The translations under genes were made by a program, and so were the position numbers. The notes under the pieces were generated by a model. The model was not told the origin of the DNA, did not search any database, and was given only the letters and a program-made list of their open reading frames with translations. Shown here in pieces: positions 42,467 to 58,871 of a stretch of 64,000 nucleotides of DNA (position 1 is its first letter; the number at the start of each line of letters is the position of its first letter). The stretch is from Roseibium aquae (GTDB lineage Bacteria > Pseudomonadota > Alphaproteobacteria > Rhizobiales > Stappiaceae): assembly GCF_008711285.1 (NCBI RefSeq), contig NZ_VXDC01000006.1, positions 186,001 to 250,000 on the forward strand. The letters are read 5' to 3'.

Positions 42467-42541
<75 letters not shown>

Positions 42542-42630: not shown

Positions 42631-44229
42631 ATGCCAAGCAAGATCAGACACCTCCATCAAGATGCCCGCGGTCGTTATCACGCTCGAATGGGCGTTCCCA
42701 AAAATCTTCGTAGCCAGATCGGTAAACGTGAATTGATAAAGGCGCTGGGCGGAGATCGCAAAGTCGCCTTGCGGGCCCTTCCTGGTGTTATTGCTGGTTT
42801 TCAAGCAATTTTGGAATCAGCACGCAAAGAGGTTAAGTTACAATCTGCAGATGAAAATGCGACCATGCTCTCCAAGAGGCCTTTGACCATCGAGGCGATC
42901 GCTGCCAAGCATTACTCGCAAAAAATGGCGCTCGACGACGAGCTCCGGGGTTTGCGTGCGGGGTACGCAAAGGTCGGCATAGACGACGGCTATATCTCTG
43001 ATTTGAAATCGATCTACGCAGGATCTTCATCTAACGAATTAATCAAAGACGTCCTTGGCGATGAACTGCAGCAATATCGACTTCGCGGTTACTACTCTGC
43101 CAGTATCGGCAGCGCCGAGTGGCGACGACTTGCCTCCCGCATAGCGTTGGCCGAGCTTGAAGTTATAAAACGAATGTTTGAGCGTGATGATGGAGCATTT
43201 GTCAGCGACACGCCCGATTGGCTAAAAGAAAAACATGATCATACCGAAGCGCCTAAGTCACCAATTCAAGATGCAGGCCATGTACGATACGGCCTTCTTG
43301 ACCTGTTCAAGATGTGCCGCCGCGCCAAAACGGGTAGCGAACAACTTCTTGACAGAACGTCAAAGGCCTACGCTAAACCGATAAATGACTTTATCTCTTT
43401 CGCTGGAATAGATGACGCTTCCAAGATTACCAATCTACACATCAGCAAGTGGGTCGATCATCTACAATTTGAGGTTGGACTAGACCCAAAGACAATAAAG
43501 GCTCGTTATCTACCAGCCGTTAAACACACGTTGCGCTGGGCGGCGAACCAGGGGCACATCGATCCGGTCGTCTTAACGGCATCGGTAACTGTGCCCAAGA
43601 AAAAGGTCGATCGCGACAAGGGATACACGGAAGCGGAAGCCGCAGCGGTTCTTGTGCATGCGATGAACTATAAGCGCCAACAAAACTCACGGGAAAGCCA
43701 GCAGTTATCGGCCGCAAAGCGCTGGGCGCCCTGGCTAGCCTACTACACAGGTGCTCGAATTGGGGAAATCGCACAGCTTCGCAAGCAAGATATCCGAACA
43801 GAAAACGAGATAAACTATATACACATAACGCCTGAGGCGGGCACAACGAAGTCAGGCCTATGGCGCGATGTGCCCCTACACTTCCAAATCATAGATCACG
43901 GTTTTCTGGAATTCGTCGAAAAGGCTCCGGATGGCCCACTCTTCTACCCAAATACTACAGCCAATGAGGACGCCATCAAAGCAACCGAAAAGATTGCTCA
44001 ACGCATCGGCAAGTGGATTAAAGACGCTGGATTAACCCCAAGTGGCGTTGCGCCAAATCATGGCTTCCGTCATACGTTCAAAACGCTCGCACGGCGATAC
44101 AACATTCCGATCGAATACATGCACGCGATTCAAGGGCATGCCACAACTAGCTCTGGACAAGAGTATGGCGTCGTCGATCTTAAGACAATGTCGCGCGAAA
44201 TTTCCAAGCTTCCGCCTGTTAAAATATGA
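42631..44229 (+). CDS. Tyrosine recombinase (phage/ICE-type integrase)
   Basis: 532 residues. The catalytic domain shows Arg in YTGARIGEIAQL, His-x2-Arg in HGFRHTF, His in QGHAT and the nucleophile Tyr in GQEYGVVD, i.e. the complete R..HxxR..H..Y set. The N-terminal half has a core-binding SAM-like domain (about 240-330) and a DUF6538-like head (MPSKIRHLHQDARGRYHARM). It is more AT-rich than neighbours, and lies immediately beside tRNA-Thr with transcription away from it. Confidence 0.95.
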   Translation: MPSKIRHLHQDARGRYHARMGVPKNLRSQIGKRELIKALGGDRKVALRALPGVIAGFQAILESARKEVKLQSADENATMLSKRPLTIEAIAAKHYSQKMALDDELRGLRAGYAKVGIDDGYISDLKSIYAGSSSNELIKDVLGDELQQYRLRGYYSASIGSAEWRRLASRIALAELEVIKRMFERDDGAFVSDTPDWLKEKHDHTEAPKSPIQDAGHVRYGLLDLFKMCRRAKTGSEQLLDRTSKAYAKPINDFISFAGIDDASKITNLHISKWVDHLQFEVGLDPKTIKARYLPAVKHTLRWAANQGHIDPVVLTASVTVPKKKVDRDKGYTEAEAAAVLVHAMNYKRQQNSRESQQLSAAKRWAPWLAYYTGARIGEIAQLRKQDIRTENEINYIHITPEAGTTKSGLWRDVPLHFQIIDHGFLEFVEKAPDGPLFYPNTTANEDAIKATEKIAQRIGKWIKDAGLTPSGVAPNHGFRHTFKTLARRYNIPIEYMHAIQGHATTSSGQEYGVVDLKTMSREISKLPPVKI

Positions 44230-44775: not shown

Positions 44776-45042
44776 TCAGCCCCGGGCCTTGGCATGCTCC
44801 ACATACTGCCGCAGAACGTCGGCCATCGCGCTGGTGTGTTTCCTGGGGAACTTCTCCTTGAAGAAGCTGATCACCTCCGGATCCAGGCGCAGGCTTGCCA
44901 CCTGCTTGGTCTTGGGAAGAACCACCCTGGCATCGGCCCAGAACGCTTCGTCTGTTGCCGGAATGTCGGAAAAATCGATGTCCTCGTCGTCCAAGGTCTC
45001 GAATTCGGCTTGCGTCATGGGCTGCTTATATCTTCTTGGCAT
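44776..45042 (-). CDS. brnA: BrnA-family antitoxin
   Basis: 88 residues from MPRRYKQPMTQAEFETLDDE. The acidic N-terminus DIDFSDIPATDEAFW and the C-terminal ribbon-helix-helix (SLRLDPEVISFFKEKFP, MADVLRQYVEHA) fit BrnA. It neutralises BrnT and binds the promoter of the pair. It overlaps the end of brnT by 17 bases. Confidence 0.85.
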   Translation of the reverse strand: MPRRYKQPMTQAEFETLDDEDIDFSDIPATDEAFWADARVVLPKTKQVASLRLDPEVISFFKEKFPRKHTSAMADVLRQYVEHAKARG

Positions 45043-45304
45043 CGTGATAGACCTTTCTCTCTGCGCGATTGGCGGCACGCGCTGAAATCAGACGGCAGGT
45101 GCCATTGCGGTCTGTGTGAACGACGGTGGTGATGATCATCGATCTGATCATCCCAATCGTGATTTCGCGGCGCTCGCCATAGTCGAAGCGCGTGTCTGTT
45201 TTTGTGATGTGCATACCATCGAACACATGCTTGGCGTCATCAAACGAAATACCATGCTTTTCGATGTTGGCTTTGTTCTTGTTCTCGTCCCACTCGAACT
45301 GCAT
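45026..45304 (-). CDS. brnT: BrnT-family ribonuclease toxin
   Basis: 92 residues: MQFEWDENKNKANIEKHGIS, FDDAKHVFDG, YGERREITIGMI and the tail LISARAANRAERKVYHDA are the BrnT pattern, with the expected conserved His/Arg residues. It is an RNase-like toxin of a type II system. A second start at 45328 adds eight residues. The toxin precedes the antitoxin, as is usual for this family. Confidence 0.87.
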   Translation of the reverse strand: MQFEWDENKNKANIEKHGISFDDAKHVFDGMHITKTDTRFDYGERREITIGMIRSMIITTVVHTDRNGTCRLISARAANRAERKVYHDAKKI

Positions 45305-45333
45305 GGCGTCTCTCGTTTGCGTCTTCATAAGAT

Positions 45334-45579: not shown

Positions 45580-45774
45580 ATGGTCAAGGGTAAAATCGTA
45601 TTCAAAGGCAACTTCTGGGAGTTCTTTTTCATGGCCATCGGCCTGATGATCCTTTCGATCATCACCTTCGGGCTGTTGCTGCCGTACCTGTTCTATTGGC
45701 AGCTGAAATATTTCTTCAACAACATGGAAATCGAAATGTACGACAACCGGGCGTCCGTGCCCCAGGCCTATTGA
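45580..45774 (+). CDS. Small membrane protein with DUF898-like appearance
   Basis: 64 residues: an N-terminal strand-like VKGKIVFKGNFWEF, a hydrophobic helix MAIGLMILSIITFGLLLPYL and a FYWQLKYFFNN segment. The W..K.F..N/.. pattern resembles DUF898/DUF6693-type membrane proteins, but I am not sure. It is convergent with the WGxF operon. Confidence 0.55.
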   Translation: MVKGKIVFKGNFWEFFFMAIGLMILSIITFGLLLPYLFYWQLKYFFNNMEIEMYDNRASVPQAY

Positions 45775-45788
45775 AAAGCGCGGATCAG

Positions 45789-46139
45789 CTAGAACAGGCC
45801 CCAGTCCGGATTGTCCAGCTGATCCGCTGTCGGCTTTGTGCGATTGGCCAGCCGCTTCCTGGTTTGAGCGGCTGCCTCCTCCAGGCGCAGGTCTTGCAGG
45901 CCCTTTTCGAACAGGCTTTCGGCGATTTGCGCGGTCTTGGCGATCCCGTGAACGACAAACTTGCCGGCAGGGTCGAAATGACCGGTCAGATATTCCTGGT
46001 GCCCCGATCTGTAGCTCACCAGCAGGCAATGAAATTCCAGGCCGCTGTCCAGAATCTCGCGCCTTGAAACATCGTAGCGCAGCATGCCGTTCTGAAGCTC
46101 GGCGTTGATGTCGTAGGTTCCGGTCAAAACAGACCCCAT
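45789..46139 (-). CDS. Unknown WGxF-tailed protein D (last gene of coupled operon)
   Basis: About 112-116 residues, not recognised. A beta-rich N-terminal part (ELQNGMLRYDVSRREILDSG, YRSGHQEYLTGHFDPAGKF) is followed by a charged helix (KTAQIAESLFEKGL to RKRLANRTKP) and the tail QLDNPDWGLF-stop. The start is either ATG 46137-46139 or TTG 46125-46127, which overlaps the previous stop as TTGA. It is the last gene on this strand, so its WGLF tail cannot be explained by a downstream ribosome site. Confidence 0.65.
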   Translation of the reverse strand: MGSVLTGTYDINAELQNGMLRYDVSRREILDSGLEFHCLLVSYRSGHQEYLTGHFDPAGKFVVHGIAKTAQIAESLFEKGLQDLRLEEAAAQTRKRLANRTKPTADQLDNPDWGLF

Positions 46140-46438
46140 GTCGGCTGTGCCTCGATCTTCTTTTCCAGGGCGCGGCGCTCCGCTTCACGCTTGTCGATTT
46201 CCATCTGGCCTTTCTTCATGGCGCGAGCGGCTGCGCATTCTGCGGATTTTCGGGCGGTTTCAATGAAATTCTGCGTGTCGATCCGAACAGGCTCCTTGTC
46301 TTCGAAGACCCGGTAGATATCGAAGTGGCCAAAGCCATGTGCATCGCTGGCCTGTGCAACGACCACGCGATCACCTCGTTCCGGGTGCGCTGCATAGCTG
46401 GCGACAAGAACGTTCTTGAGAAATTCCGGCATATTCAT
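46124..46438 (-). CDS. Unknown WGxF-tailed protein C
   Basis: 104 residues starting MNMPEFLKNVLVASYAAHPE. Middle part GDRVVVAQASDAHGFGHFD and YRVFEDKEPVRID, then a strongly charged helix (ARAMKKGQMEIDKREAERRA) ending EAQPTWGLF-stop. The start ATG shares its A with the previous stop (TGATG). No family recognised. It overlaps or abuts protein D. Confidence 0.7.
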   Translation of the reverse strand: MNMPEFLKNVLVASYAAHPERGDRVVVAQASDAHGFGHFDIYRVFEDKEPVRIDTQNFIETARKSAECAAARAMKKGQMEIDKREAERRALEKKIEAQPTWGLF

Positions 46439-46734
46439 CAAAACACGCCCCACTGCGGATTGAGCTTGTCCTGCTCCAGCTTTTTCAGGCGCTCACGTTC
46501 CTTAAGCTCTCGCTCGATCTTCATGTGGTAGGCCTGGTTCAGCTCGATGATGAGGTTGTTGGCGCGCTTGGTCGCTTGCTGTGGATCATGGCACTTGTAG
46601 ATCATCGGGCCTGGGAGATCGGCGCCGTTGATATGCGCCTCGACCCAGTAATGCGGCTCGCCGTCCTTAAGCGCCGACTTGGCCTGAACGACAGAGCCGT
46701 CAAGTGACACGTCCTGGCAGAAGATGTCCGCCAT
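46438..46734 (-). CDS. Unknown WGxF-tailed protein B
   Basis: 98 residues beginning MADIFCQDVSLDGSVVQAKS, with HYWVEAHINGADLPGPMIYK, then a charged helix (KIERELKERERLKKLEQ) and NPQWGVF-stop. The reading frame is continuous with the N-terminal part of protein A upstream, so an uninterrupted 214-residue frame (46438-47082) also exists; the TGATG junction and the tail of A argue for a separate protein starting at 46734. Confidence 0.7.
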   Translation of the reverse strand: MADIFCQDVSLDGSVVQAKSALKDGEPHYWVEAHINGADLPGPMIYKCHDPQQATKRANNLIIELNQAYHMKIERELKERERLKKLEQDKLNPQWGVF

Positions 46735-47082
46735 CAGAACGCGCCCCAGGCCGGGTTCCCGGTCATGGCTTCCCGTTTCGATGCCTGCTGCCGGGCCCTG
46801 GCTGTCAGACGCTTGTGCTTGACCGCCGTCCCGCTCGGCCCGCCGTTTCATGTCCGCGACCGTTTCCAGGTGCCGCTCCACTTCCCGCTCGACACGCCAA
46901 TCCATCTGGAACTGCTTGATGCGCCGGAGAACAGGCACACGGCGCAGGATGCTTTTCTGCCACCAGGGCGTGACATAGATCGCCGCGAACACCAGTTTGC
47001 GCACGATGTCCTCATGCCAGGTCTGTGCGATCAGTTTGCCGCCACCATCGACGGCGGCATAGGTCGAAGGGGTTTTCCTCAT
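46734..47082 (-). CDS. Unknown WGxF-tailed protein A, with apparent +1 frameshift
   Basis: The first ~85 residues (MRKTPSTYAAVDGGGKLIAQ, a hydrophobic LVFAAIYVTPWWQKS, and the helix VEREVERHLETVADMKRRAE) read in one frame. Near 46821-46831 a shift of one base into the next frame gives VKHKRLTARARQQASKREAM and TGNPAWGAF-stop, ending exactly at a TGATG junction with protein B. Without the shift, the frame reads into B. The shift could be a mutation, a sequencing error or programmed. Confidence 0.5.
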
Positions 47083-47215: not shown

Positions 47216-47806
47216 TCAGTCGCAGCGGTAGCGGCCCTTGATGTGATTGTTGTAAAACTTGCCAGCGCTTTCGGCCCGAACCAGATCGTAGACTTCGTAG
47301 CCTGTAACATCACAGTACCGATATGCTCCGTTGGGAAAGACGAAGATCACGTCCATGTCTGGGATATATTCCTCAACGTTGATGTCATAATCGATGTCCC
47401 GATCGCGGCGATCCGTGCAAGAGGGAGAGCCATCTTCCTCAATATCGAAGCCGCAAGTGATATCCATGTCGCTTCCGAGATATTCGATTTCGATCCAGCC
47501 CTCTTCGATATAGATTTTTTCAATCCAGCTGCTGGTGAAATTGACTTCGGAAAAGGACCCAACATCGACATAGCTGCCGTTGGCGAGCTGAATGACTTCT
47601 TCTCTATGGAGACCCCACTTACGCGGGTTCTTTTCGGGTATGCCGATGCCATTCACGACACGGACGACTGGCTCAGGCTCTTCCTCCTTAAACCAGCCTG
47701 TTTTGGCCGCGAATTCCATACCTCCCGTGATGACACCCGTGCCTATGATGGCAAAAATAAAAATGCCGAACATCGAGCTGTCATCGTCTTTCTTTTTATC
47801 CGTCAT
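47216..47806 (-). CDS. Unknown membrane-anchored acidic protein
   Basis: 196 residues: a charged N-terminus (MTDKKKDDDSS), one hydrophobic segment (MFGIFIFAIIGTGVITGGM), then a strongly acidic, probably periplasmic domain with Cys residues (ITCGFDIEEDGSPSCTD, YRYCDVTG) ending GRYRCD. An internal KNPRKWGLHRE faintly resembles the C-terminal motif of proteins A-D. The start overlaps the previous stop (TGATG). No family recognised. Confidence 0.65.
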   Translation of the reverse strand: MTDKKKDDDSSMFGIFIFAIIGTGVITGGMEFAAKTGWFKEEEPEPVVRVVNGIGIPEKNPRKWGLHREEVIQLANGSYVDVGSFSEVNFTSSWIEKIYIEEGWIEIEYLGSDMDITCGFDIEEDGSPSCTDRRDRDIDYDINVEEYIPDMDVIFVFPNGAYRYCDVTGYEVYDLVRAESAGKFYNNHIKGRYRCD

Positions 47807-48096
47807 CAGTCGCATACCTGAACGTTTGACCCGTACCGGCGGCATGTTCGGTTGTAATATTTTCCATCGATCGTGCCGGTCGTGACAGATCGATCGCCAT
47901 AGTCCTGGGTGGTGAAGTTGAACCGCTTGCCGTCCGCGGTGCCGGAGGTAACCGTTGTGCTCCCAACGCGCGAGGAGCTGGTGTAGTCGGACGACTTGGG
48001 ATGCACCGGCATGCCGTAAAGGTCAGGGTTGTTTTGTCCGCCGGCGAACGCTGGGAGCGTCATGGCGACAAGCGCGACAAGGGCTGCACGGATCAT
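47806..48096 (-). CDS. Small secreted protein of unknown function
   Basis: 96 residues with a clear signal peptide (MIRAALVALVAMTLPAFAGG). The mature part is Thr/Ser/Gly-rich (TTVTSGTADGKRF, VTTGTIDGKYYN) with two Cys near the end (NRTCRRYGSNVQVCD). It overlaps the upstream ORF by ATGA and the downstream one by TGATG. No family recognised. Confidence 0.65.
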   Translation of the reverse strand: MIRAALVALVAMTLPAFAGGQNNPDLYGMPVHPKSSDYTSSSRVGSTTVTSGTADGKRFNFTTQDYGDRSVTTGTIDGKYYNRTCRRYGSNVQVCD

Positions 48097-48308
48097 TCCG
48101 CCTCCTGCAGGAAATAGGTGTTTTCAGGCACATCGTCAGCGTCATGCCAGGCGCGAATCTGATCCGCAGCATGCGGAATACTGACAGCGGATCCAACTTT
48201 CTCAAGCACTGGAATGTCGGCGCCGCCTGCGCTTGTGAAAAGGTTCTGGCGCTTCAAGATGGTGATGCTGCCAAAAATCTGCGGCGTTCGCATATTGAGA
48301 CGTGCCAC
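48093..48308 (-). CDS. Unknown small protein, first gene of the coupled operon
   Basis: 71 residues from a GTG at 48308, or 66 from ATG 48293: MRTPQIFGSITILKRQNLFT, then VLEKVGSAVSIPHAADQIRAW and PENTYFLQEAE. It ends in an ATGA overlap with the secreted protein gene. The transcript is divergent from cas3, with 149 bases between them. Confidence 0.55.
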   Translation of the reverse strand: MARLNMRTPQIFGSITILKRQNLFTSAGGADIPVLEKVGSAVSIPHAADQIRAWHDADDVPENTYFLQEAE

Positions 48309-48457: not shown

Positions 48458-50953
48458 ATGACTGCTTGGGGAAAATCGGACGGTGAAACTGGCGCGCGGC
48501 ATCACTTGGCACACCATAGTGCAGATGTCGCGGCCGTATTGATTGCGCTGCTCGAGACGCCGACGTTTCGCGCCAGAGCTGAGGCGGCGGCAGGGCAGCC
48601 CTTGTCGCCACAGGAAATTTCATGCTTGGGTGCGCTTTCTTTCCTGCATGATATCGGCAAGCTCGCGACCGCATTTCAAATTAAGGCATGGCATGGCAAC
48701 TCAGGCATAACACCGCGAGGGCATGTACAATGCGGCTGGCTTTGGCTCAGACAGGATGATGCAACTAATGCCCTAGATGGAAACGCTCTGTATTTAGCGC
48801 AATGGGGGCCTGACCTTTTAGTTTGGTTTCGTCTAATTTTTGCCCATCACGGTCGCCCAGTACCAATCCCCGACGAAAATTGGGGCCGTGATGCCTTCGC
48901 ACCGCTATCGGGCTATAACTGGAGGGACGAAGAGCGGTCGATGGGCAAGGCCCTGATTAAATGGTTTCCAGAAATCAGCGATCATGCGCCCCCGCCCCTC
49001 ACACATGAGTTCGCACATTTCTTCGCTGGGCTTCTGGCTCTTGCGGACTGGGTTGGGTCGGATCGGCAGGTGTTTGATTTCATCGAAGAGTTTGATCCGG
49101 CCTACTGGACCATAGCCACTCAAAAAGCGCGGCGACATTTGCGCGACATTGGCCTTGATACATCCGACACGCGACTGGCCGGACCGGCGACTTGGCCACT
49201 GTTGTCCGATCATCCCGCGCCGCGCCCGGCACAGCGGATTGTCGCAGACGTTGAAACCTCCGAAAAGCTGATCATCCTTGAGGCCGAGACAGGTGCGGGC
49301 AAGACCGAGGCGGCACTTTGGCGATTCGCAAAGCTTTTCGAGGCCGAAGAAGTAGAGGCACTTTATTTCGCGGTACCGACGCGCGCGGCAGCGCGACAGT
49401 TGCAGGCCCGGGTCAACACCGCCCTAAAGCGGATGTTTGCTGATCCTGTTCCAGAGGCAATACTGGCGATACCAGGGCAGGCAAAGGCAGGCGAGGCGCT
49501 AGGCCACCGCTTGCCGGAATTTCGCATGCGTTGGGACGATACCGACGAAGTTCGCCCGGCCCGATGGGCCGCAGAGCATGCCACTCGGTTTCTCGCGGCG
49601 CAGATTGCCGTGGGAACTGTTGATCAAGTCATGATGGCGGGCCTTAAAGTAAAGCACGCGCATCTACGCGGCGCGGCGTTATCGCGGGCGCTCATTGTAA
49701 TCGATGAGGTCCACGCATCAGATGCCTGGATGACCGAAATCCAGCGATCGCTCGTTGCAGACCACCTTGCCTTGGGTGGACATGCAATGCTGATGTCGGC
49801 GACCCTGGGCTCAGTGGCACGTGCCGCTTGGCGGAGCGAAGAGCTACCATCACTAAAAATGGCACAGGTTATGGCTTATCCCGCCGTATGGACAAAATCC
49901 GAGTGTTTTCCTGTACATGATGTAGACACAACCCGGAAGACCGTTTCTATCCAGCCTCAATGCGGCTGGAGCGGATCGCAAGCTAGCCAGCTGGCAGTTG
50001 CGGCAGCCCGCTTGGGCGCGCGCGTTTTGGTGATCCGCAACACGGTCGACCGAGCACGCGAAACTTGGCGCGCCTGTGCCGATGTTAATCCTGAACTGAT
50101 CTTTTCCTTAAACGGCATCCCCACGTTGCACCACAGCCGGTTTGCTGCTGAGGATCGTGCGAGGTTGGATGCGCGGGTCGAGGAGGCACTCGGCGCAAAG
50201 CGCGGCACGGGCGGGATGATAGTAGTGGGCACGCAAACGCTCGAACAGTCACTAGATATCGACGCTGATTTTCTTATCACTGACCTCTGCCCGATGGACG
50301 TCTTGCTGCAACGCATCGGGCGCCTCCATCGGCACACGCGCGTCCGGCCACCGGGTTTTGAAACGGCTAAGACGATCGTGCTGCACCCTGGAAGCGGCCT
50401 TGATGCGCTGACGCACATGCCCGAGAATGGCCTTGGTGCTTTCGGTAAAAATGCGTCGCTTTCGGGCGTATACCTCGACGTACCCGGTCTAGCGGCAACG
50501 CTGGCCGAGGTTGTCAACAGCCCGAAATGGAATATCCCGGACATGAACCGCCAGCTCGTTGAAAGCGCAACACACCCAGAACGCTTAGATCAGATTGCCC
50601 GGGAAAACGGCTGGGAGGACTATCGCCGCCGCGTCACTGGCAAGGCCATCGCGGAGACACAAGGTGCGAAATTGGTTACTCTCGACCGCACATTGGAATT
50701 TCCCAGCCTATTCCCGGACGACGAGTTCATTGGCACGCGCCTCGGAGAAAAAGGCGCGATCCTCGCCCTGCCTGAGGGCACGATCGGACCTTTCGGACAC
50801 CCAGTTAAGACAATGGCCTTGCCGGTTCACTGGTCACTCGGGTTGACCGGTGACGAAGAAGTGATCGTTGATGGCGATGGCCCCTTGAGGCTGTCTGTCG
50901 GGGAAAAGCAGTTTCAATACGGGGCCGACGGCCTCACCAAGGTCGAGGAGTGA
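48458..50953 (+). CDS. cas3: CRISPR-associated helicase/nuclease Cas3 (type I-E)
   Basis: 831 residues. The N-terminal HD nuclease has LSFLHDIGKLATAFQ and an early His pair; the SF2 helicase has Walker A ETGAGKTEAALW, VIDEVHASD (DEVH), LMSATLG, and QTLEQSLDIDADFLITDLCP with QRIGRLHRH. It is recruited by Cascade and degrades target DNA. It heads a unidirectional operon; the next gene starts within 5-11 bases. All motifs appear intact. Confidence 0.96.
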   Translation: MTAWGKSDGETGARHHLAHHSADVAAVLIALLETPTFRARAEAAAGQPLSPQEISCLGALSFLHDIGKLATAFQIKAWHGNSGITPRGHVQCGWLWLRQDDATNALDGNALYLAQWGPDLLVWFRLIFAHHGRPVPIPDENWGRDAFAPLSGYNWRDEERSMGKALIKWFPEISDHAPPPLTHEFAHFFAGLLALADWVGSDRQVFDFIEEFDPAYWTIATQKARRHLRDIGLDTSDTRLAGPATWPLLSDHPAPRPAQRIVADVETSEKLIILEAETGAGKTEAALWRFAKLFEAEEVEALYFAVPTRAAARQLQARVNTALKRMFADPVPEAILAIPGQAKAGEALGHRLPEFRMRWDDTDEVRPARWAAEHATRFLAAQIAVGTVDQVMMAGLKVKHAHLRGAALSRALIVIDEVHASDAWMTEIQRSLVADHLALGGHAMLMSATLGSVARAAWRSEELPSLKMAQVMAYPAVWTKSECFPVHDVDTTRKTVSIQPQCGWSGSQASQLAVAAARLGARVLVIRNTVDRARETWRACADVNPELIFSLNGIPTLHHSRFAAEDRARLDARVEEALGAKRGTGGMIVVGTQTLEQSLDIDADFLITDLCPMDVLLQRIGRLHRHTRVRPPGFETAKTIVLHPGSGLDALTHMPENGLGAFGKNASLSGVYLDVPGLAATLAEVVNSPKWNIPDMNRQLVESATHPERLDQIARENGWEDYRRRVTGKAIAETQGAKLVTLDRTLEFPSLFPDDEFIGTRLGEKGAILALPEGTIGPFGHPVKTMALPVHWSLGLTGDEEVIVDGDGPLRLSVGEKQFQYGADGLTKVEE

Positions 50954-50957
50954 CGCG

Positions 50958-52463
50958 GTGCGGATGAACCTTTTGACCGAACCACTAATCCAGACGGACA
51001 AACAGATGCTGAGCCTTCCGGGCCTTCTTGCGGCGATGGCGCGGGGCGAGGTGGCGTCCTTTCCTGCCCTCCGACCGCATCAACGGCCCGCATGGCACAT
51101 GTTTCTGGTGCAATTGGCGACGCTTGCGTTGTCCAACGCTGGAGTGACCGACCTGCCCGATAATGAGGACAGTTGGAGCGCGGCACTCCGAGGTTTGACC
51201 GCCGACTTTCCCGACGACGCGCCATGGCACCTTGTCGTCGAGGATCGCCGCAAGCCTGCCTTCTTCCAGCCGCCCGACCCCGGCGGACTCAAATGGCAAG
51301 AGGTGACAACGCCGGATGCGCTAGACATGCTGATCACCTCGCGCAACCACGACCTCAAGCGTAAAATCGCCTATGACGCCGCGCCACAGGACTGGATATT
51401 TGCGCTGATCAGCCTGCAAACTATGGAGGGCTTCGGCGGTGCGGGAAATTACGGCGTTGCTCGAATGAACGGAGGTTCGTCATCGCGCATCATGATCGCG
51501 CTTGCTCCAATCACAGGCGGTGGCTCGGTCATCGACACGTCAGCGTGGTGGCGACGCGAGGTGAAGCATCTGCTTTCGGGGCGCAGCGGGCTGAGCGGCC
51601 AAGCACTGCTATGGTGCCGACCTTGGCCCGAAGGGCAGCTACTTGATCTGATAGGACTCGATCCGCTCTTCATCGAGGTCTGCCGCCGCGTGCGCCTTGT
51701 AAATGGCGACACCGGGCTACACGCACAGCGCACGACGTCCAAAGCCGCGCGCATTGCCGCGAAAGAGGCTAATGGCATGACCCAAGACCCTTGGGCGCCG
51801 GTTCATCTGGCGGAGGCAAAAACTCTGACATTGGGCGAGCGCGACTGGACTTATGGCCTGCTCAGCGAGCTATTATACAGCGGAAAATGGCAAGAGCCCC
51901 GGCTCGTAAATGAGACGGTGAAGGAAAAAAATGAATCGATGGTGCTGGTTGCCGAAGCGTTCGCACGGGGCAATTCCAAGACCGATGGCTTTAAATCCCG
52001 CGTCATCCCGGTGCCCAAGGCAGTGCGCAAGGAAATGTTCGGCACCAGGGCGATCGACTTGTCGGATGAGCAGATCAAGACCATAGATCAATTCGACAAG
52101 GCGCTGCGTGACGGGTTGGCGTTGATAGCAGCACAGGGCGATCGCGAAAAACGAGGCAAGGCCGAATACGCCCGCACTGCGCCTGCCCGTGCAGCACTGC
52201 ATCGGCTGGCCGATTCTCTTTTCTTTCCAGCGCTTTGGGACAAGCTCGCAGCCGGCTCTGAAGATGGTCGGAAAGAGGCTCACATGCGCTTTGTCCGTCG
52301 CTTGGCGCAGGCCGCGCGGGAAGAATTCAACCGCGCCGTGTCCGGCATTCCCTGTGCGCAGATCATGCGACCCCGTGCCGAGGTACGTGGCCGCGCGGAG
52401 CTGAATGCAAGACTAACAAAGATTTTCAAAGACATTGGTGTGAAGGAATTCGAGAATGTCTGA
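50958..52463 (+). CDS. casA: Cascade large subunit Cse1 (Cas8e)
   Basis: 501 residues from GTG 50958 (or ATG 50964). Typical Cse1 features are NLLTEPLIQ near the start, SLPGLLAAMARGEVASFPAL, the NGGSSSRIMIALAP segment and a C-terminal four-helix bundle. It recognises the PAM and recruits Cas3. It overlaps cse2 by 8 bases. Confidence 0.93.
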   Translation: MRMNLLTEPLIQTDKQMLSLPGLLAAMARGEVASFPALRPHQRPAWHMFLVQLATLALSNAGVTDLPDNEDSWSAALRGLTADFPDDAPWHLVVEDRRKPAFFQPPDPGGLKWQEVTTPDALDMLITSRNHDLKRKIAYDAAPQDWIFALISLQTMEGFGGAGNYGVARMNGGSSSRIMIALAPITGGGSVIDTSAWWRREVKHLLSGRSGLSGQALLWCRPWPEGQLLDLIGLDPLFIEVCRRVRLVNGDTGLHAQRTTSKAARIAAKEANGMTQDPWAPVHLAEAKTLTLGERDWTYGLLSELLYSGKWQEPRLVNETVKEKNESMVLVAEAFARGNSKTDGFKSRVIPVPKAVRKEMFGTRAIDLSDEQIKTIDQFDKALRDGLALIAAQGDREKRGKAEYARTAPARAALHRLADSLFFPALWDKLAAGSEDGRKEAHMRFVRRLAQAAREEFNRAVSGIPCAQIMRPRAEVRGRAELNARLTKIFKDIGVKEFENV

Positions 52464-52986
52464 CGACGGTGAAGAGGTGGCGCGCCGCGCATTGGCCATT
52501 GCGGGCGAGCTTGCGCGTGTTGATCCTGGCGAGCGCGCCGCCGCTCGCCGAATGGGCCCAGAGGGTGCCGCGTTGTTCTGGCGCCTCTCGGCACGGCACG
52601 GGATCGCCCGACACGAAGAAGAGAAATGGCGCCGCATTACAAAGTTTCTGGCACTGCTGACCCCAGCCAACGCAACCGACAGCGTGCACCAGAGCAGGCG
52701 TGATTTTGGCGCGGTGTTAGCCGACGGCGGTGATGAGTGGGCGCGACTGGACAAGCCCGCATTGTCCGAACAACGCCTCGCAAGGCTTCTTGCCGCGCGG
52801 GGGCAATCGCGGCTCGACGCGCTAGAACGAGCGGTACGCGCGTTGGCACGCAACCGTCCGAAGGTGGATGCGCCAAGCCTCGCTTGGGCCGTTCTCAACG
52901 ACGATACCCGTGCCATCGCGCGCGCTTATTACGCCCGATTCGACCGCAGCGCCGATTTAAACGAAAAGGAAAAGACCGATGCCTGA
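52456..52986 (+). CDS. casB: Cascade small subunit Cse2 (Cas11e)
   Basis: 176 residues, Arg/Ala-rich and helical (RRALAIAGELARVDPGERAA, WRRITKFLALLTPA, LARLLAARGQSRLDALERAV). It stabilises the crRNA-target complex as a dimer. The gene overlaps casA and cas7 by 8 bases each, supporting coupled translation. Confidence 0.9.
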   Translation: MSDDGEEVARRALAIAGELARVDPGERAAARRMGPEGAALFWRLSARHGIARHEEEKWRRITKFLALLTPANATDSVHQSRRDFGAVLADGGDEWARLDKPALSEQRLARLLAARGQSRLDALERAVRALARNRPKVDAPSLAWAVLNDDTRAIARAYYARFDRSADLNEKEKTDA

Positions 52987-54118
52987 TCCGAGGTTTCTGC
53001 AAATTCACTTTTTGGCACCCTATACTGCAGCGCTGCTCAACCGAGACGATGCCGGACTTGCAAAACGTCTTCCCTATGGCGGCGCGTTGCGAACGCGCGT
53101 GAGTTCGCAATGCTTGAAGCGTCACTGGCGGCTGGCGGATGATCCGCACGCACTCGCGACAATAGACGGGGCCGATGCGGCCTATCGTTCTCGCGAAATC
53201 GTCGAGCACAAGGTGTTTGGTGACTGGGCCGCTGACGTTGACGACAATGTTGCGAACGAAATCAAGGACGCCTTGTTAAAAGTCGTCTACGGTGACAAAG
53301 GGACCGATAAAAAATCTCGCCAGACGCTGTTGCTGGGCGAGGTCGAGGTCGCTTACCTGACCAAGCAGGCTAGAGCGCTCGTTGCGGAGGCCGCCGGCGA
53401 CAAGAAGGCGGCGAAGGAGATCTCGGCCGCCTGGCTTAAGGAACACAAGGCCAATCTCAAGGCCCTGAGCGAGGGTGCGAAACTCCCCGGTGGCCTTACC
53501 GGCGCACTGTTCGGGCGCATGATGACCTCCGACCCGCGCGCCAATATCGACGCGGCCGTGCATGTGGCCCATGCCTTCACGGTTCATGCCGAGGAGGCAG
53601 AGAGCGATTATTTCATCGCCGCCGACGATCTGGCACGTGAAGAGGATACCGGCGCGGACACGATTCAGGAAACCGAACTCACCTCCGGCCTCTTTTATGG
53701 TTATGTCGTGGTGGACATCCCGGGCCTGCTGGGAAATCTTGGTGGCGATGCGGAAATGGCTGGTGCGGTATTGCACAACGTCGTGTACTTGATCGCTGAG
53801 GTTTCGCCAGGAGCCAAGCTAGGCTCGACCGCGCCCTATAGCCGCGCCTCGCTGATGCTGCTGGAAGCCGGCGACCGGCAGCCGCGCTCCTTAGCCGAGG
53901 CGTTCCGCAAACCATGCCCGCCCGAAACCGGGCAGGCCGTGGCGGCTTTGTCGGACCATCTAGGCGCCCTCGACGCCGCCTACGCGACGGGCGAGATCCG
54001 CTGCGTAATGACCCTGGCCAATCAAGATGTGCCGATGGCCAAGCGCGGCACGCTAGCCGATCTGGCAGCCTTCGCGCGCGACCTTCCGACACGCCTCGGC
54101 GGACCCGCCGCGGCATGA
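52979..54118 (+). CDS. cas7e: Cascade backbone subunit Cas7e
   Basis: 379 residues starting MPDPRFLQIHFLAPYTAALL, with NRDDAGLAKRLPYGGALRTR and VSSQCLKRHWR, the classic Cas7e/Cse4 N-terminus. Six copies coat the crRNA. Ends in an ATGA overlap with cas5e. Confidence 0.95.
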   Translation: MPDPRFLQIHFLAPYTAALLNRDDAGLAKRLPYGGALRTRVSSQCLKRHWRLADDPHALATIDGADAAYRSREIVEHKVFGDWAADVDDNVANEIKDALLKVVYGDKGTDKKSRQTLLLGEVEVAYLTKQARALVAEAAGDKKAAKEISAAWLKEHKANLKALSEGAKLPGGLTGALFGRMMTSDPRANIDAAVHVAHAFTVHAEEAESDYFIAADDLAREEDTGADTIQETELTSGLFYGYVVVDIPGLLGNLGGDAEMAGAVLHNVVYLIAEVSPGAKLGSTAPYSRASLMLLEAGDRQPRSLAEAFRKPCPPETGQAVAALSDHLGALDAAYATGEIRCVMTLANQDVPMAKRGTLADLAAFARDLPTRLGGPAAA

Positions 54119-54804
54119 GCTATGAATGGCTTCATCTGCGCCTTGCGGCGCCCCTCATGGCCTTCGGTGGTGTCGCCATCGATCATGTCGGGCCCACACG
54201 GGAATTTCCCTCGGCCTCCGCGCTGACCGGGCTTCTGGCCAACGCGCTGGGGTATCGGCGCGAAGACGGCGCATGTCATCAGGCGTTGCAGGACAGGCTG
54301 ATTTTCGGCGCGCTGTCAGTCCTGCCCGAGGGGCGCAATATGCCACTGGCGGTTACCGACACCCAGAACGCCAAGCTGGAAAAATCGGACCGTGGCTGGA
54401 CAACATTGGGGGCACCTGAAGGACGGGCGGGCGCGACTTATGACAGCCCCCACCGCCGCCGCCGCGACTATCTGGTCGATCACGAGACCCGCGTCGTGCT
54501 CAGGCTGGCAGCAGGTGAGGGCCCCACGCTAGAGAATGTAGCGACGGCGCTTGATCGGCCCGCGCGCCCACTCTTTATCGGGCGCAAATCCTGCCTACCG
54601 GCATCGCCGCTGTTGCAAGGTGATGCCGAGGGGGCAACCGCCTATGCCGCGCTTCTGAGCCTGGGGCTCCATGGGCATGCGATATGGCCCGATGAGGGAG
54701 AAGGCCCTGACGGCGCCCTACGCTATGACATAGCGGACCTGCGTAACTGGCACAGTGGCCTGCATGGCGGCAGTCGTGTCGTGATAGAGGGCCAAATCCT
54801 ATGA
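54115..54804 (+). CDS. cas5e: Cascade subunit Cas5e
   Basis: 229 residues from ATG 54115 (MSYEWLHLRLAAPLMAFGGV), with DHVGPTREFPSASALTGLLA and a Gly-rich RAMP fold. It binds the crRNA 5' handle. A longer upstream frame in the same phase is the out-of-frame read of cas7 and is rejected. Starts and ends in ATGA overlaps. Confidence 0.94.
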   Translation: MSYEWLHLRLAAPLMAFGGVAIDHVGPTREFPSASALTGLLANALGYRREDGACHQALQDRLIFGALSVLPEGRNMPLAVTDTQNAKLEKSDRGWTTLGAPEGRAGATYDSPHRRRRDYLVDHETRVVLRLAAGEGPTLENVATALDRPARPLFIGRKSCLPASPLLQGDAEGATAYAALLSLGLHGHAIWPDEGEGPDGALRYDIADLRNWHSGLHGGSRVVIEGQIL

Positions 54805-55535
54805 CCCTGCAATTGATAGAAATGCCGCTGTCGTTGTCGGCACTGCACAGCTGGGCCGGGCAACGCAATGTTGGGTACGGCCTATTCGACGAAGGTGCGG
54901 TCCTGCATCACATTCTGGGAGAGGTATTCGGTCCTGCCGTGTTGCAGCCTTTCCGCTTGCTGGTTGCGCCGCGCGCGCGGACGGGCACGCTTTATGCCTA
55001 CAGCACCGTTGCGGCGGAAGACCTGCGCGCTGAGGCGGCACCGGTGCTGGGGCCGTCCGAAGCTGGGGTCCTGTCGCTCGATGCCTTGCGTTCGATCGCG
55101 CGACCCGAAACGACCTGGCGAGAGGGGATGCGCCTTGGTTTCGACCTCAAGTGCCGACCCGTGGTGCGCATAGCCTCACCGCTTAAAGGCAAGGACATAC
55201 GATTTGCCAAGGGCGCCGAGTTGGACGCATTCTTGGCTGAGTCGATGCGCAACGACCATGCTCGGTCGCGCGAGGATGTTTATTTTGATTGGCTTGCAGC
55301 GCGTCTTGCACCGGTCGCCGATCTCGAACGGGAGGCATCACGATTGCACCAGTTCCGGCGCGTGCGAAGCCTGCGTCGCGGGCGGCAGGTGGAAGGCCCA
55401 GATGTCGTTATCCATGGTTCCTTGACCGTCTGTGACCCGCAGGGTTTTGCCCGCCTGCTCGCGCGCGGGGTCGGGCGACACCGCAGCTACGGATACGGAA
55501 TGCTGCTTTTACGACCGCCGCAACGAAAGGCGTGA
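54801..55535 (+). CDS. cas6e: CRISPR RNA endonuclease Cas6e
   Basis: 244 residues. LSALHSWAGQRNVGYGLFDE, AVLHHILGEVFG near the N-terminus contains the catalytic-site His typical of Cas6e, and the C-terminal RLLARGVGRHRSYGYGMLLL is the Gly-rich loop. It cuts the pre-crRNA at the base of each repeat hairpin and stays in Cascade. Confidence 0.94.
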   Translation: MTLQLIEMPLSLSALHSWAGQRNVGYGLFDEGAVLHHILGEVFGPAVLQPFRLLVAPRARTGTLYAYSTVAAEDLRAEAAPVLGPSEAGVLSLDALRSIARPETTWREGMRLGFDLKCRPVVRIASPLKGKDIRFAKGAELDAFLAESMRNDHARSREDVYFDWLAARLAPVADLEREASRLHQFRRVRSLRRGRQVEGPDVVIHGSLTVCDPQGFARLLARGVGRHRSYGYGMLLLRPPQRKA

Positions 55536-56772: not shown

Positions 56773-58871
56773 GGTTCCCCCGCACCCGCGGGGATAGACC
56801 CGAATACCACGGCGCAATCCATTCCCCCGCCCAGGTTCCCCCGCACCCGCGGGGATAGACCCCTCCATGCACAAAGAAAAGCGCATGACGGTACGGTTCC
56901 CCCGCACCCGCGGGGATAGACCCTTCTGTTGACGGATGACAGTTTCCGCACGCGTGGTTCCCCCGCACCCGCGGGGATAGACCCAAAAACGCGCACCGGT
57001 CACGCAAACAGCGCTCGGTTCCCCCGCACCCGCGGGGATAGACCCAGCCGGGACGCCTCCTCACACTGCGCGCGGGTGGTTCCCCCGCACCCGCGGGGAT
57101 AGACCCGTGTAAGTGATGGTGACGGGCTCTTGAAACTTGGTTCCCCCGCACCCGCGGGGATAGACCCACCGCTTGAGGGCCGCGGCCAAGCGCGGGATCG
57201 GTTCCCCCGCACCCGCGGGGATAGACCCACGTCCGCAGGCCCGACCCGCGTGTCCAATATGGTTCCCCCGCACCCGCGGGGATAGACCCGACGATAGCGT
57301 CTGGCGTCTGGACGTTCTCTAGGTTCCCCCGCACCCGCGGGGATAGACCCAGCATCAAATGCGGGCGATGGACACACCGGAGGGTTCCCCCGCACCCGCG
57401 GGGATAGACCCCCGCCGCAGTCTCCCGCGACGGGTCGTTTGGTGGTTCCCCCGCACCCGCGGGGATAGACCTTCACCAACTTGGACGTCGCGTTGGGAGT
57501 GGATGGTTCCCCCGCACCCGCGGGGATAGACCCCCCGCCAAGAAGAAGCGGCAGCCCGTGCTAGGGGTTCCCCCGCACCCGCGGGGATAGACCCATCCCC
57601 CCGAACATAAGGGCCGAGCCAAGGATGGTTCCCCCGCACCCGCGGGGATAGACCCGTGGTCACGCAAGACGGCGAGCCGGTCATTCTGGTTCCCCCGCAC
57701 CCGCGGGGATAGACCCGCTATGCAAGCCGCTTTACGTGCAAATGGGATGGTTCCCCCGCACCCGCGGGGATAGACCCGGCTATCGTGTCCAGATCGTCGG
57801 CGTCATAGAGGTTCCCCCGCACCCGCGGGGATAGACCCGACAATCTCCGCGCGGTTCATCGGTTATGCCAGGTTCCCCCGCACCCGCGGGGATAGACCCG
57901 ACTGACACGGAGTGCCTCCGACGAGAACATCGGTTCCCCCGCACCCGCGGGGATAGACCCGGACTTGGCAAATTCCTTGCGCAATTCTTTGAGGGTTCCC
58001 CCGCACCCGCGGGGATAGACCCGGGATGCTTCGTATCACGGTCGCGGAAGCCAAGGTTCCCCCGCACCCGCGGGGATAGACCCGGGCCGGAAGACCGAGA
58101 GAAGGTCGCCAAATGGGTTCCCCCGCACCCGCGGGGATAGACCCCTCACCCCATCCAACAACAGCCACCTTCAGAAGGTTCCCCCGCACCCGCGGGGATA
58201 GACCCGCACTGGATGCCCCTGCAAGAACCACCGGAGGGGTTCCCCCGCACCCGCGGGGATAGACCCGTAAGCGCCTGCGCCCGTCAGTCTTTCCCGGCGG
58301 TTCCCCCGCACCCGCGGGGATAGACCCCCCTGGGTGGCGGCGATCAGCTTCGAGGTTCAGGTTCCCCCGCACCCGCGGGGATAGACCCCGGGCCGGATAA
58401 TCAGGCTGTCCTGCAAGTCGGGTTCCCCCGCACCCGCGGGGATAGACCCCGGCCTCGCATTTGATCAGATCGCCGGGGTTAGGTTCCCCCGCACCCGCGG
58501 GGATAGACCCTGGATCGAAGACGCTTGGTACAACGACGAAGAGGTTCCCCCGCACCCGCGGGGATAGACCCGACGATGATCCCTACCTGATCGCCGTCAG
58601 CCCGGTTCCCCCGCACCCGCGGGGATAGACCCCGCTATCCGCGCATGAAGCAACGGACAGGATTGGTTCCCCCGCACCCGCGGGGATAGACCCCGGCATG
58701 ACGGCTTCAGCGTTTGGCTTGGCCGGGTTCCCCCGCACCCGCGGGGATAGACCCCGGGCCGGAGTGCGGTGGTAAGGCCCGGTTCCGGTTCCCCCGCGGA
58801 GATACCCCCCCTCGCACAGTGGTCGTCATGGATTGCTGTCGGGGTTCCACCGCACTCGCGGGGATATTCCC
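56773..58871 (+). CRISPR. Type I-E CRISPR array, 33 intact and 2 decayed repeats
   Basis: Intact 29-base repeats begin GGTTCCCCCGC and end ATAGACCC, with a hairpin CCCCGC/GCGGGG around ACCC. They start at 56773 and recur every 61 bases with 32-base spacers, except one 33-base spacer (57961-57993). The 12th repeat (57444) ends in T in place of C. The intact set ends at 58754; a repeat at 58787 has lost part of its stem, and a last one at 58843-58871 has several substitutions. Orientation follows cas transcription, with the leader at the cas2 side. The decayed end is the old end. Confidence 0.99.

Follow-up and report, generated by a model that had tools for sequence, protein, structure and literature searches.

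A C-terminal aromatic-glycine tail on four consecutive genes of a Roseibium aquae tRNA-Thr island and on small proteins of large cobS/cobT phages, a candidate docking peptide

In phage T4, the clamp-binding tails of gp43, gp55 and gp33 are short motifs that dock to one clamp hub, as do the PIP boxes of eukaryotes. The consensus is Q-x-L/M-x-F for the beta clamp and Q-x-x-h-x-x-F-F for PIP. Extreme C-terminal peptides that recruit partners are also found at the tip of SSB, whose acidic tail ends in I/L-P-F (DDDIPF), and in the XB tails of ClpX adaptors. Finally, the ssrA tag, which ends in A-A, is added by tmRNA.

The tail reported here has the general form [WFY]-G-x-[F/W]-COOH, frequently preceded by [N/H]-P-x. 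As clamp-binding tails are already known, we would classify it as a variant of hub-and-tail docking: the principle itself is not new, and the novelty lies in its unusual scale and its lineage dialects. It resembles the T4 clamp tails and PIP boxes in that unrelated proteins carry a short, often C-terminal, aromatic or hydrophobic motif for one hub, here a putative one, but it differs from them by its aromatic-G-x-F/W residues, by the many more proteins concerned per phage and by long consecutive runs of tagged genes. We rejected its assignment as a beta-clamp or PIP motif: position -4 is aromatic, -3 is G and -1 is F or W, and a Q at -7 is found only in gene C described below and in none of 71 tags. 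The SSB tip and the XB tails are alike in being extreme C-terminal peptides that recruit partners, but their sequence differs; the tag is not an SSB tip, as its residues are different and the SSBs of the phages RHEph10 and nickie end otherwise. Nor is it of the ssrA type, since each gene encodes its own tag, which ends in F or W (in nickie, in W or F followed by A, G or S).

The tail was noticed in a window of 64,000 nucleotides of Roseibium aquae, the whole stretch of DNA that was analysed. Translation of its minus strand between 45789 and 47082 confirmed four tandem genes, A to D, with a common seven-residue C-terminal tail. Gene B (46438..46734) encodes 98 amino acids ending NPQWGVF (tag at 46441-46461), gene C (46124..46438) encodes 104 amino acids from the ATG at 46438 and ends QPTWGLF (46127-46147), and gene D (45789..46139) encodes 116 amino acids ending NPDWGLF (45792-45812). 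In gene A (46734..47082), whose body starts at 47082, the tail NPAWGAF (46737-46757) lies one base off the frame of the body and, as the earlier note had stated, can be reached only after a one-base frame correction. As sequenced, the body frame of A has no stop before B and forms an ORF of 214 amino acids (46438-47082). In the 37-codon tail of A, third-position GC peaks in the tag frame (0.86); this codon bias is compatible with a frame break, by sequencing error or mutation, and falls short of proof. The bodies of the four proteins do not resemble one another, the best pairwise E being 0.61 with the tags of B to D cut off and A taken as its first 81 residues.

The genes are tightly packed. 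Both B and C start within a TGATG overlap with the preceding stop, and the start codon of D sits in the tag codons of C (ATGGGG), which gives D the N-terminus MGSVL; D itself stops with TAG, and no overlapping gene follows it. Several phage ORFs (in the loci L194 and L114) likewise start MGxVL. In Pfam, neither B, C, D nor the A-B reading frame has a match above cut-off, the best being DUF7910 for C with 19 bits against a required 35, and the AlphaFold model of D alone is too poor to judge its fold (pLDDT 50). D was rejected as a WGR protein: phmmer links it to one phage WGR protein (E 0.0042, one domain), and a 22-member family profile, searched with 10,029 decoys, disagrees. The bodies of A to D gave no convincing match in the tagged phages presented below, the weak matches of C and D (E 0.006-0.007) spanning the tag. 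Protein searches of plasmids and viral contigs found no relative of B or D, the search with D yielding six pattern-matching stretches and not one relative, and the operon DNA matches neither plasmids nor phages.

The earlier note called the run of four tails beyond chance, and the counts bear this out. The N form of the pattern occurs three times in the window (A, B and D), against a mean of 0.04 in shuffled sequences, none of 100 shuffles reaching three; the Q form occurs once (C), which 3 of 100 shuffles equal. Over the whole genome (4,403,029 bases, 37 contigs), the pattern MANCCNNNNTGGGGNNNNTTYTRR, which stands for N/Q/H/K-P-x-W-G-x-F followed by TAA, TAG, TGA or TGG, has four matches, all of them in A to D and all with a stop, so that these are the sole stop-anchored [NQHK]PxWGxF ends of 4.4 Mb. 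The backwards control of this pattern and the F/Y form followed by TAA or TGA both gave no match in the same genome. Another 86 genomes of the family yielded 17 matches, spread over 16 genomes; every one of them ends in TGG, i.e. tryptophan, and none is anchored by a stop. In an order-level draw of 397 genomes that includes the source genome, nine hold matches with TAA or TGA, and more than one such match was found only in the source genome and in one other, whose three matches have positions identical to those of the 109,453-base contig of Faunimonas pinastri (Hyphomicrobiales). The motif is thus rare at random C-termini at each of these levels, a point on which the earlier note had made its claim depend. 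On a chromosome of another member of this order, a serine-recombinase-like ORF ends NPNWGRF (L078, 706-1524); it is a lone tagged gene and may be a chance end or a captured tag.

Outside this genome, the tag recurs on dozens of proteins with unrelated bodies in a single group of phages and phage-plasmids of large size (82-121 kb), which includes Rhizobium phage RHEph10, Pseudomonas phage nickie, Stenotrophomonas phage BUCTxx99, Escherichia coli phage Cyrano and elements of Sphingomonas, Roseospira and Faunimonas. Viral contigs and genomes were scanned with the NP-W form together with the TGATG overlap, which is thus built into the hits. Among 2.9 million viral contigs, 21 stretches were found, 17 of which are C-termini of real-sized ORFs with mostly unrelated bodies (four of the 17 being one identical protein); the remaining stretches (L024, L031, L034 and L039) share one short chance frame and were dropped. 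Among 84,980 genomes, 48 stretches were found, and seven are tagged C-termini. These seven come from four genomes, each of them alphaproteobacterial (Sphingomonas sp. NFR04, Ca. Sphingomonas excrementigallinarum, Roseospira marina and Faunimonas pinastri), and the contigs concerned bear phage genes. The other 41, which have no start-to-tag ORF of 60 codons, were left out (L099 and L108 among them run off the sequence edge and may yet be tagged ends), and further retrieved stretches without a tagged ORF were set aside (L204, L206, L210-L212, L219 and L222-L224).

The named phages RHEph10, nickie, Cyrano and RHph_X66 were reached by homology. Some tagged ORFs may be chance ends in the following counts per element: seven in RHEph10, eight in Sphingomonas NFR04, ten in Ca. 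S. excrementigallinarum, ten in the element G504, 12 in 104 of the 109 kb of BUCTxx99 and six in 99 of the 112 kb of nickie. Those of RHEph10 are chiefly of the FGRF type, and those of nickie read [WF]Gx[WF][AGS], with one extra residue past the aromatic. Two tagged ORFs were found in the 49.5 kb read of RHph_X66 and two ends WG[ST]W in the 49 kb read of Cyrano, which has both CobT and CobS and represents the SSU5-like type. The element B1VFA, described as phage-plasmid-like (PMC12509600), matches CobT and CobS of RHEph10. As in the window, small proteins are tagged in cobST phages and phage-plasmids of the RHEph10, nickie, SSU5-like and BUCTxx99 types; the window copy differs by its location on a chromosomal island.

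Tagged genes do cluster as neighbours elsewhere, which the earlier note had proposed to check: consecutive runs comprise ten genes in the contig L205, nine in BUCTxx99, eight in G504 and its near copy L226, and five in Ca. S. excrementigallinarum. Runs of eight to ten genes include BRCT-like proteins (L205 2115-4921, L226 4007-6353, L241 27312-30074), and a UvsW-type helicase lies near the tagged runs of L205 and its relatives. BUCTxx99 had been a candidate for a tagless cobST phage of the group. In one half of its genome, the annotated small genes indeed carry no tag except for one likely chance end; in the other half, nine consecutive genes of a block of small overlapping genes next to a helicase have YGxW ends, and one further tagged gene, located elsewhere, has the end ETYGGW, which refutes that reading. 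On the reading preferred here, the operon of the window would consist of phage-type tagged genes sitting on a tRNA-Thr island. As to the claim that a system with this arrangement is undescribed, an open-access literature search gave no fitting tag or motif, but the arrangement itself is present in known cultured phages.

The 120 tagged ORFs, a few of which are chance ends, fall into 60 body clusters. Two bodies were recognised, a WGR domain, which scores 21 bits in Pfam, just below the cut-off of 22, and is annotated as such in RHEph10 and RHph_X66, and a BRCT domain (29 bits against a cut-off of 21). The model of the WGR family comprises a folded body, a loop and a helix (149-173) after which the tag follows, the same build as that noted earlier for A to D, where the tag comes after a charged helix. 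In a structure search of the PDB with this model, the WGR domains of PARP2 and PARP3 were among the best matches (E about 1e-3). The tag of this family is thus predicted to be exposed beyond the folded body.

For 19 tagged body families from phages, 79 of the 80 homologues present among 13,907 ORFs of the retrieved loci retain the tag (22 of 22 in the WGR family), a count that is partly circular as many contigs were originally found through the tag. The lone untagged homologue (L201, 214-690) ends SSRFPS. Regarding the earlier question of whether homologues lack the tail, the phage families thus keep it, but homologues of A to D themselves were not found. In an alignment of 21 WGR proteins, the linker between the conserved body and the tag varies in length; its rows were taken from tagged ORFs, a choice that in part accounts by itself for the invariant G and F and that the count of 79 in 80 avoids. 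De novo C-terminal pair statistics, abandoned as a tag detector, did single out the nickie motif, but yielded little with greedy two-strand ORF calls. Restricted to the major strand, the top pair beats all 100 permutations only in nickie, Sphingomonas NFR04 and Roseospira, and fails to do so in RHEph10, Faunimonas, M099, Ca. S. excrementigallinarum, X66, Cyrano and others. We relied instead on direct counts, on retention in homologues and on the dialect test that follows.

Each phage spells its tag alike across unrelated genes. For 100 tags from 17 sources, identity within a phage is 0.735 at position -4 (0.356 when permuted), 0.864 at -1 (0.622) and 0.233 at -2 (0.094), values that none of 2000 permutations reached. 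Some records had been found by their tag, and the test was therefore repeated on the 47 tags of seven phages reached through homology only: identity was 0.893 against 0.506 at -4 and 0.808 against 0.529 at -1, neither reached in 2000 permutations, and 0.226 against 0.123 at -2, reached once in 2000. Excluding all NPx[WF]GxF tags (86 tags left) likewise gave no permutation in 2000 at each position. Even related phages differ: all ten tags read YGxW in G504, all ten read YGxF or FGxF in its relative L205, whose helicase is 75% identical, and both spellings occur in G505. The window spelling, WG[LVA]F, is nearest to that of the Faunimonas element, where two proteins end NPDWGLF like D. Such dialects are compatible with a putative reader that changes along with the phage; copying of tag cassettes within a genome could also add to them, or make them.

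From these sequence comparisons, we lean towards the tail being a C-terminal docking peptide, i.e. a short linear motif, read by one putative hub that is encoded by the phage rather than by the host. The earlier note held that a tag common to unrelated proteins points to one partner, and a single putative partner does appear to be the simplest explanation. The peptide would consist of an aromatic residue, a glycine, any residue and an F or W with a free carboxylate, often after N/H-P-x, and would be presented on a charged helix. By reading it, a single hub would bring each tagged body, WGR, BRCT or other, to the same machine. A phage-encoded hub seems the more likely since dialects are specific to each phage; candidates would be CobT/CobS, which combine vWA and AAA+ modules, or a protein of the replication core or replisome. 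If so, dozens of unannotated phage proteins would gain one common handle and could be sorted into one functional class, and cultured phages such as RHEph10 would gain a testable organising principle.

The earlier note had suggested looking for a gene always present with tagged clusters. CobT and CobS are both found in the seven large tagged elements first counted (with fragments included, CobT in 12 of 12 and CobS in 10 of 12) and in all ten tagged records of 82-121 kb, hence in 17 of 17 large elements, and also in G504. The survey covered 23 records, the rest of 34 stretches being repeats, records of RHEph10 or NFR04, or without tagged ORF. Among the other 13 records, three fragments are positive and ten negative for CobST; of the latter, six are tagged fragments of 5-13 kb, three are contigs lacking any tagged ORF, and the last is a 76-kb contig whose only tagged end, HPFWGTF, is probably fortuitous. 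G505, a tagged fragment of 41 kb, has no CobT_C. But other core genes are just as constant: SSB, DNA polymerase, primase, DnaB, RecA and an exonuclease are equally universal in ten tagged genomes, too many for the hub to be named from gene content. The main replication proteins of RHEph10 and nickie, SSBs included, carry no tag. Among ORFs of at least 55 amino acids in cobS/cobT-type viruses outside the group, the core tag is absent from the whole of ICP2, from 50 of the 58 kb of CRP-810 and from the parts read of P-SSM2 (49 of 252 kb) and HVTV-1 (50 of 102 kb). That CobT/CobS would read the tag is speculation on our part, and the pair is a candidate only; the role proposed for viral cobST in a published study is cobalamin synthesis together with host CobN (PMC8651126). 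A tag-reading role might bear on why many tailed viruses carry cobS/cobT.

Other explanations have to be weighed, with confidences that overlap, as they are not mutually exclusive. We give hardly any credence to the idea that what is conserved at the gene junctions is the nucleic acid, a DNA or RNA element such as a recombination site or a device for translational coupling, with the peptide as a by-product. Many tags do overlap the next start, although the scan pattern required the TGATG, the start of D lies inside the tag of C, and 66 of 71 tags use TTC for the final F, so that wobble is not free everywhere. On the other hand, these 71 distinct tags, which come from 29 clusters, show 1.89 bits at the third codon position of P and 1.82 at that of G, and the codons for W (TGG), F (TTY) and Y (TAY) interchange at -4; D, moreover, bears its tag before a TAG stop that no next gene overlaps. 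Since the wobble bases of P and G vary freely and the aromatics interchange, the peptide appears to be what is conserved, and codon use indicates selection on it and not on the DNA. The tag could also be a sorting signal, either a degron recognised by a phage or host protease or a mark that directs packaging into virions, which we judge improbable. The free C-terminal residue does belong to the motif and an HslV-family peptidase is annotated in RHEph10 (L069, 3557-4009), but none of the seven tagged ORFs of RHEph10 is annotated as structural, and the nickie tags, one residue longer past the aromatic, are unlike a fixed degron.

A rather doubtful alternative keeps the docking peptide and assigns the hub to the host, where the beta clamp, RNA polymerase or an AAA+ protease could be the reader, in which case the island operon would work without a phage. 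WGR and BRCT modules would suit DNA-bound host machines, and the source genome has no further tags; no phage of the tagged group and no phage-type CobT were found in it, its one CobT_C match (E 1.5e-113) being taken as a chromosomal gene. That no such phage was found counts against a phage hub and towards either a host hub or a relic. Dialects that differ even between the related G504, L205 and G505 speak against a host reader, as does the near absence of the tag from bacterial genomes outside phage elements. Under the phage-hub reading, A to D would be phage-type genes captured on the tRNA-Thr island, and would act upon entry of a phage of the tagged group, because no phage-type CobT was found in the source genome; most plausibly, they would occupy or redirect the phage hub. 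Alternatively, the operon may be a relic, the dead remnant of a phage element, only the phage copies being of importance, a lesser possibility that is compatible with docking. A is frame-broken relative to its own tag, and B and D have no homologue in plasmids or viral contigs, but B, C and D are open with their tags kept, and the codon bias of the tail of A is still visible in its own frame. As no hub gene adjoins the operon on the island and the genome has a single CobT_C match, three options are left for the operon: roughly, action on incoming phages is quite possible, and a hub that is a host protein, or a relic, are each a lesser possibility. An elaboration that we find unlikely is that a phage-encoded reader, perhaps CobS/CobT, would recognise a lineage-specific C-terminal password on changing host-takeover proteins, and that the forged passwords of the island would jam or exploit it.

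The island itself is bounded by tRNA-Thr (42467..42541, plus strand), whose 3′ 24 bases (42518-42541) are repeated 29.8 kb away at window+72288..72311 (L184, 8288-8311); these repeats are likely attL and attR. It carries a tyrosine integrase (42631..44229, plus strand) and a BrnT-BrnA toxin-antitoxin pair (44776..45328, minus strand), and no phage genes were recognised adjoining the operon. The tagged code can thus occur on a bacterial island without a phage. A DUF898-like small membrane protein (45580-45774) is convergent with the operon. Upstream of A, on the minus strand, lie a KTSC-domain protein (47216..47845, E 9e-9) with a membrane-type N-terminus by eye, a small protein (47806..48096) with a signal-like N-terminus by eye and no Pfam match, and a 71-amino-acid ORF (48093..48308) that overlaps the next start. 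The suggestion that the upstream secreted and membrane-anchored proteins belong to the tag system was not supported, a KTSC match being found in none of 15 tagged records or genomes. The operon is, as had been observed, divergent from CRISPR-Cas: the type I-E cas genes (48458..55535) are on the plus strand, with cas3 domains and cas7 above NCBIfam cut-offs and cse1 and cas6 below, followed on the same strand by an array (56773..58753) of 33 exact repeats and 32 spacers. A functional tie did not emerge, CRISPR-Cas being just an island neighbour; the longest match of the 32 spacers to the retrieved tagged loci is 17 bases, with a best E of 0.011, among the matches listed. In this 29.8-kb island (window 42467-64000 and L184 1-8311), the type I-E CRISPR-Cas system is found together with arsenite oxidase genes, and the arsenite oxidase part also has a sensor kinase and a regulator, forming a two-component system, and MoeA.
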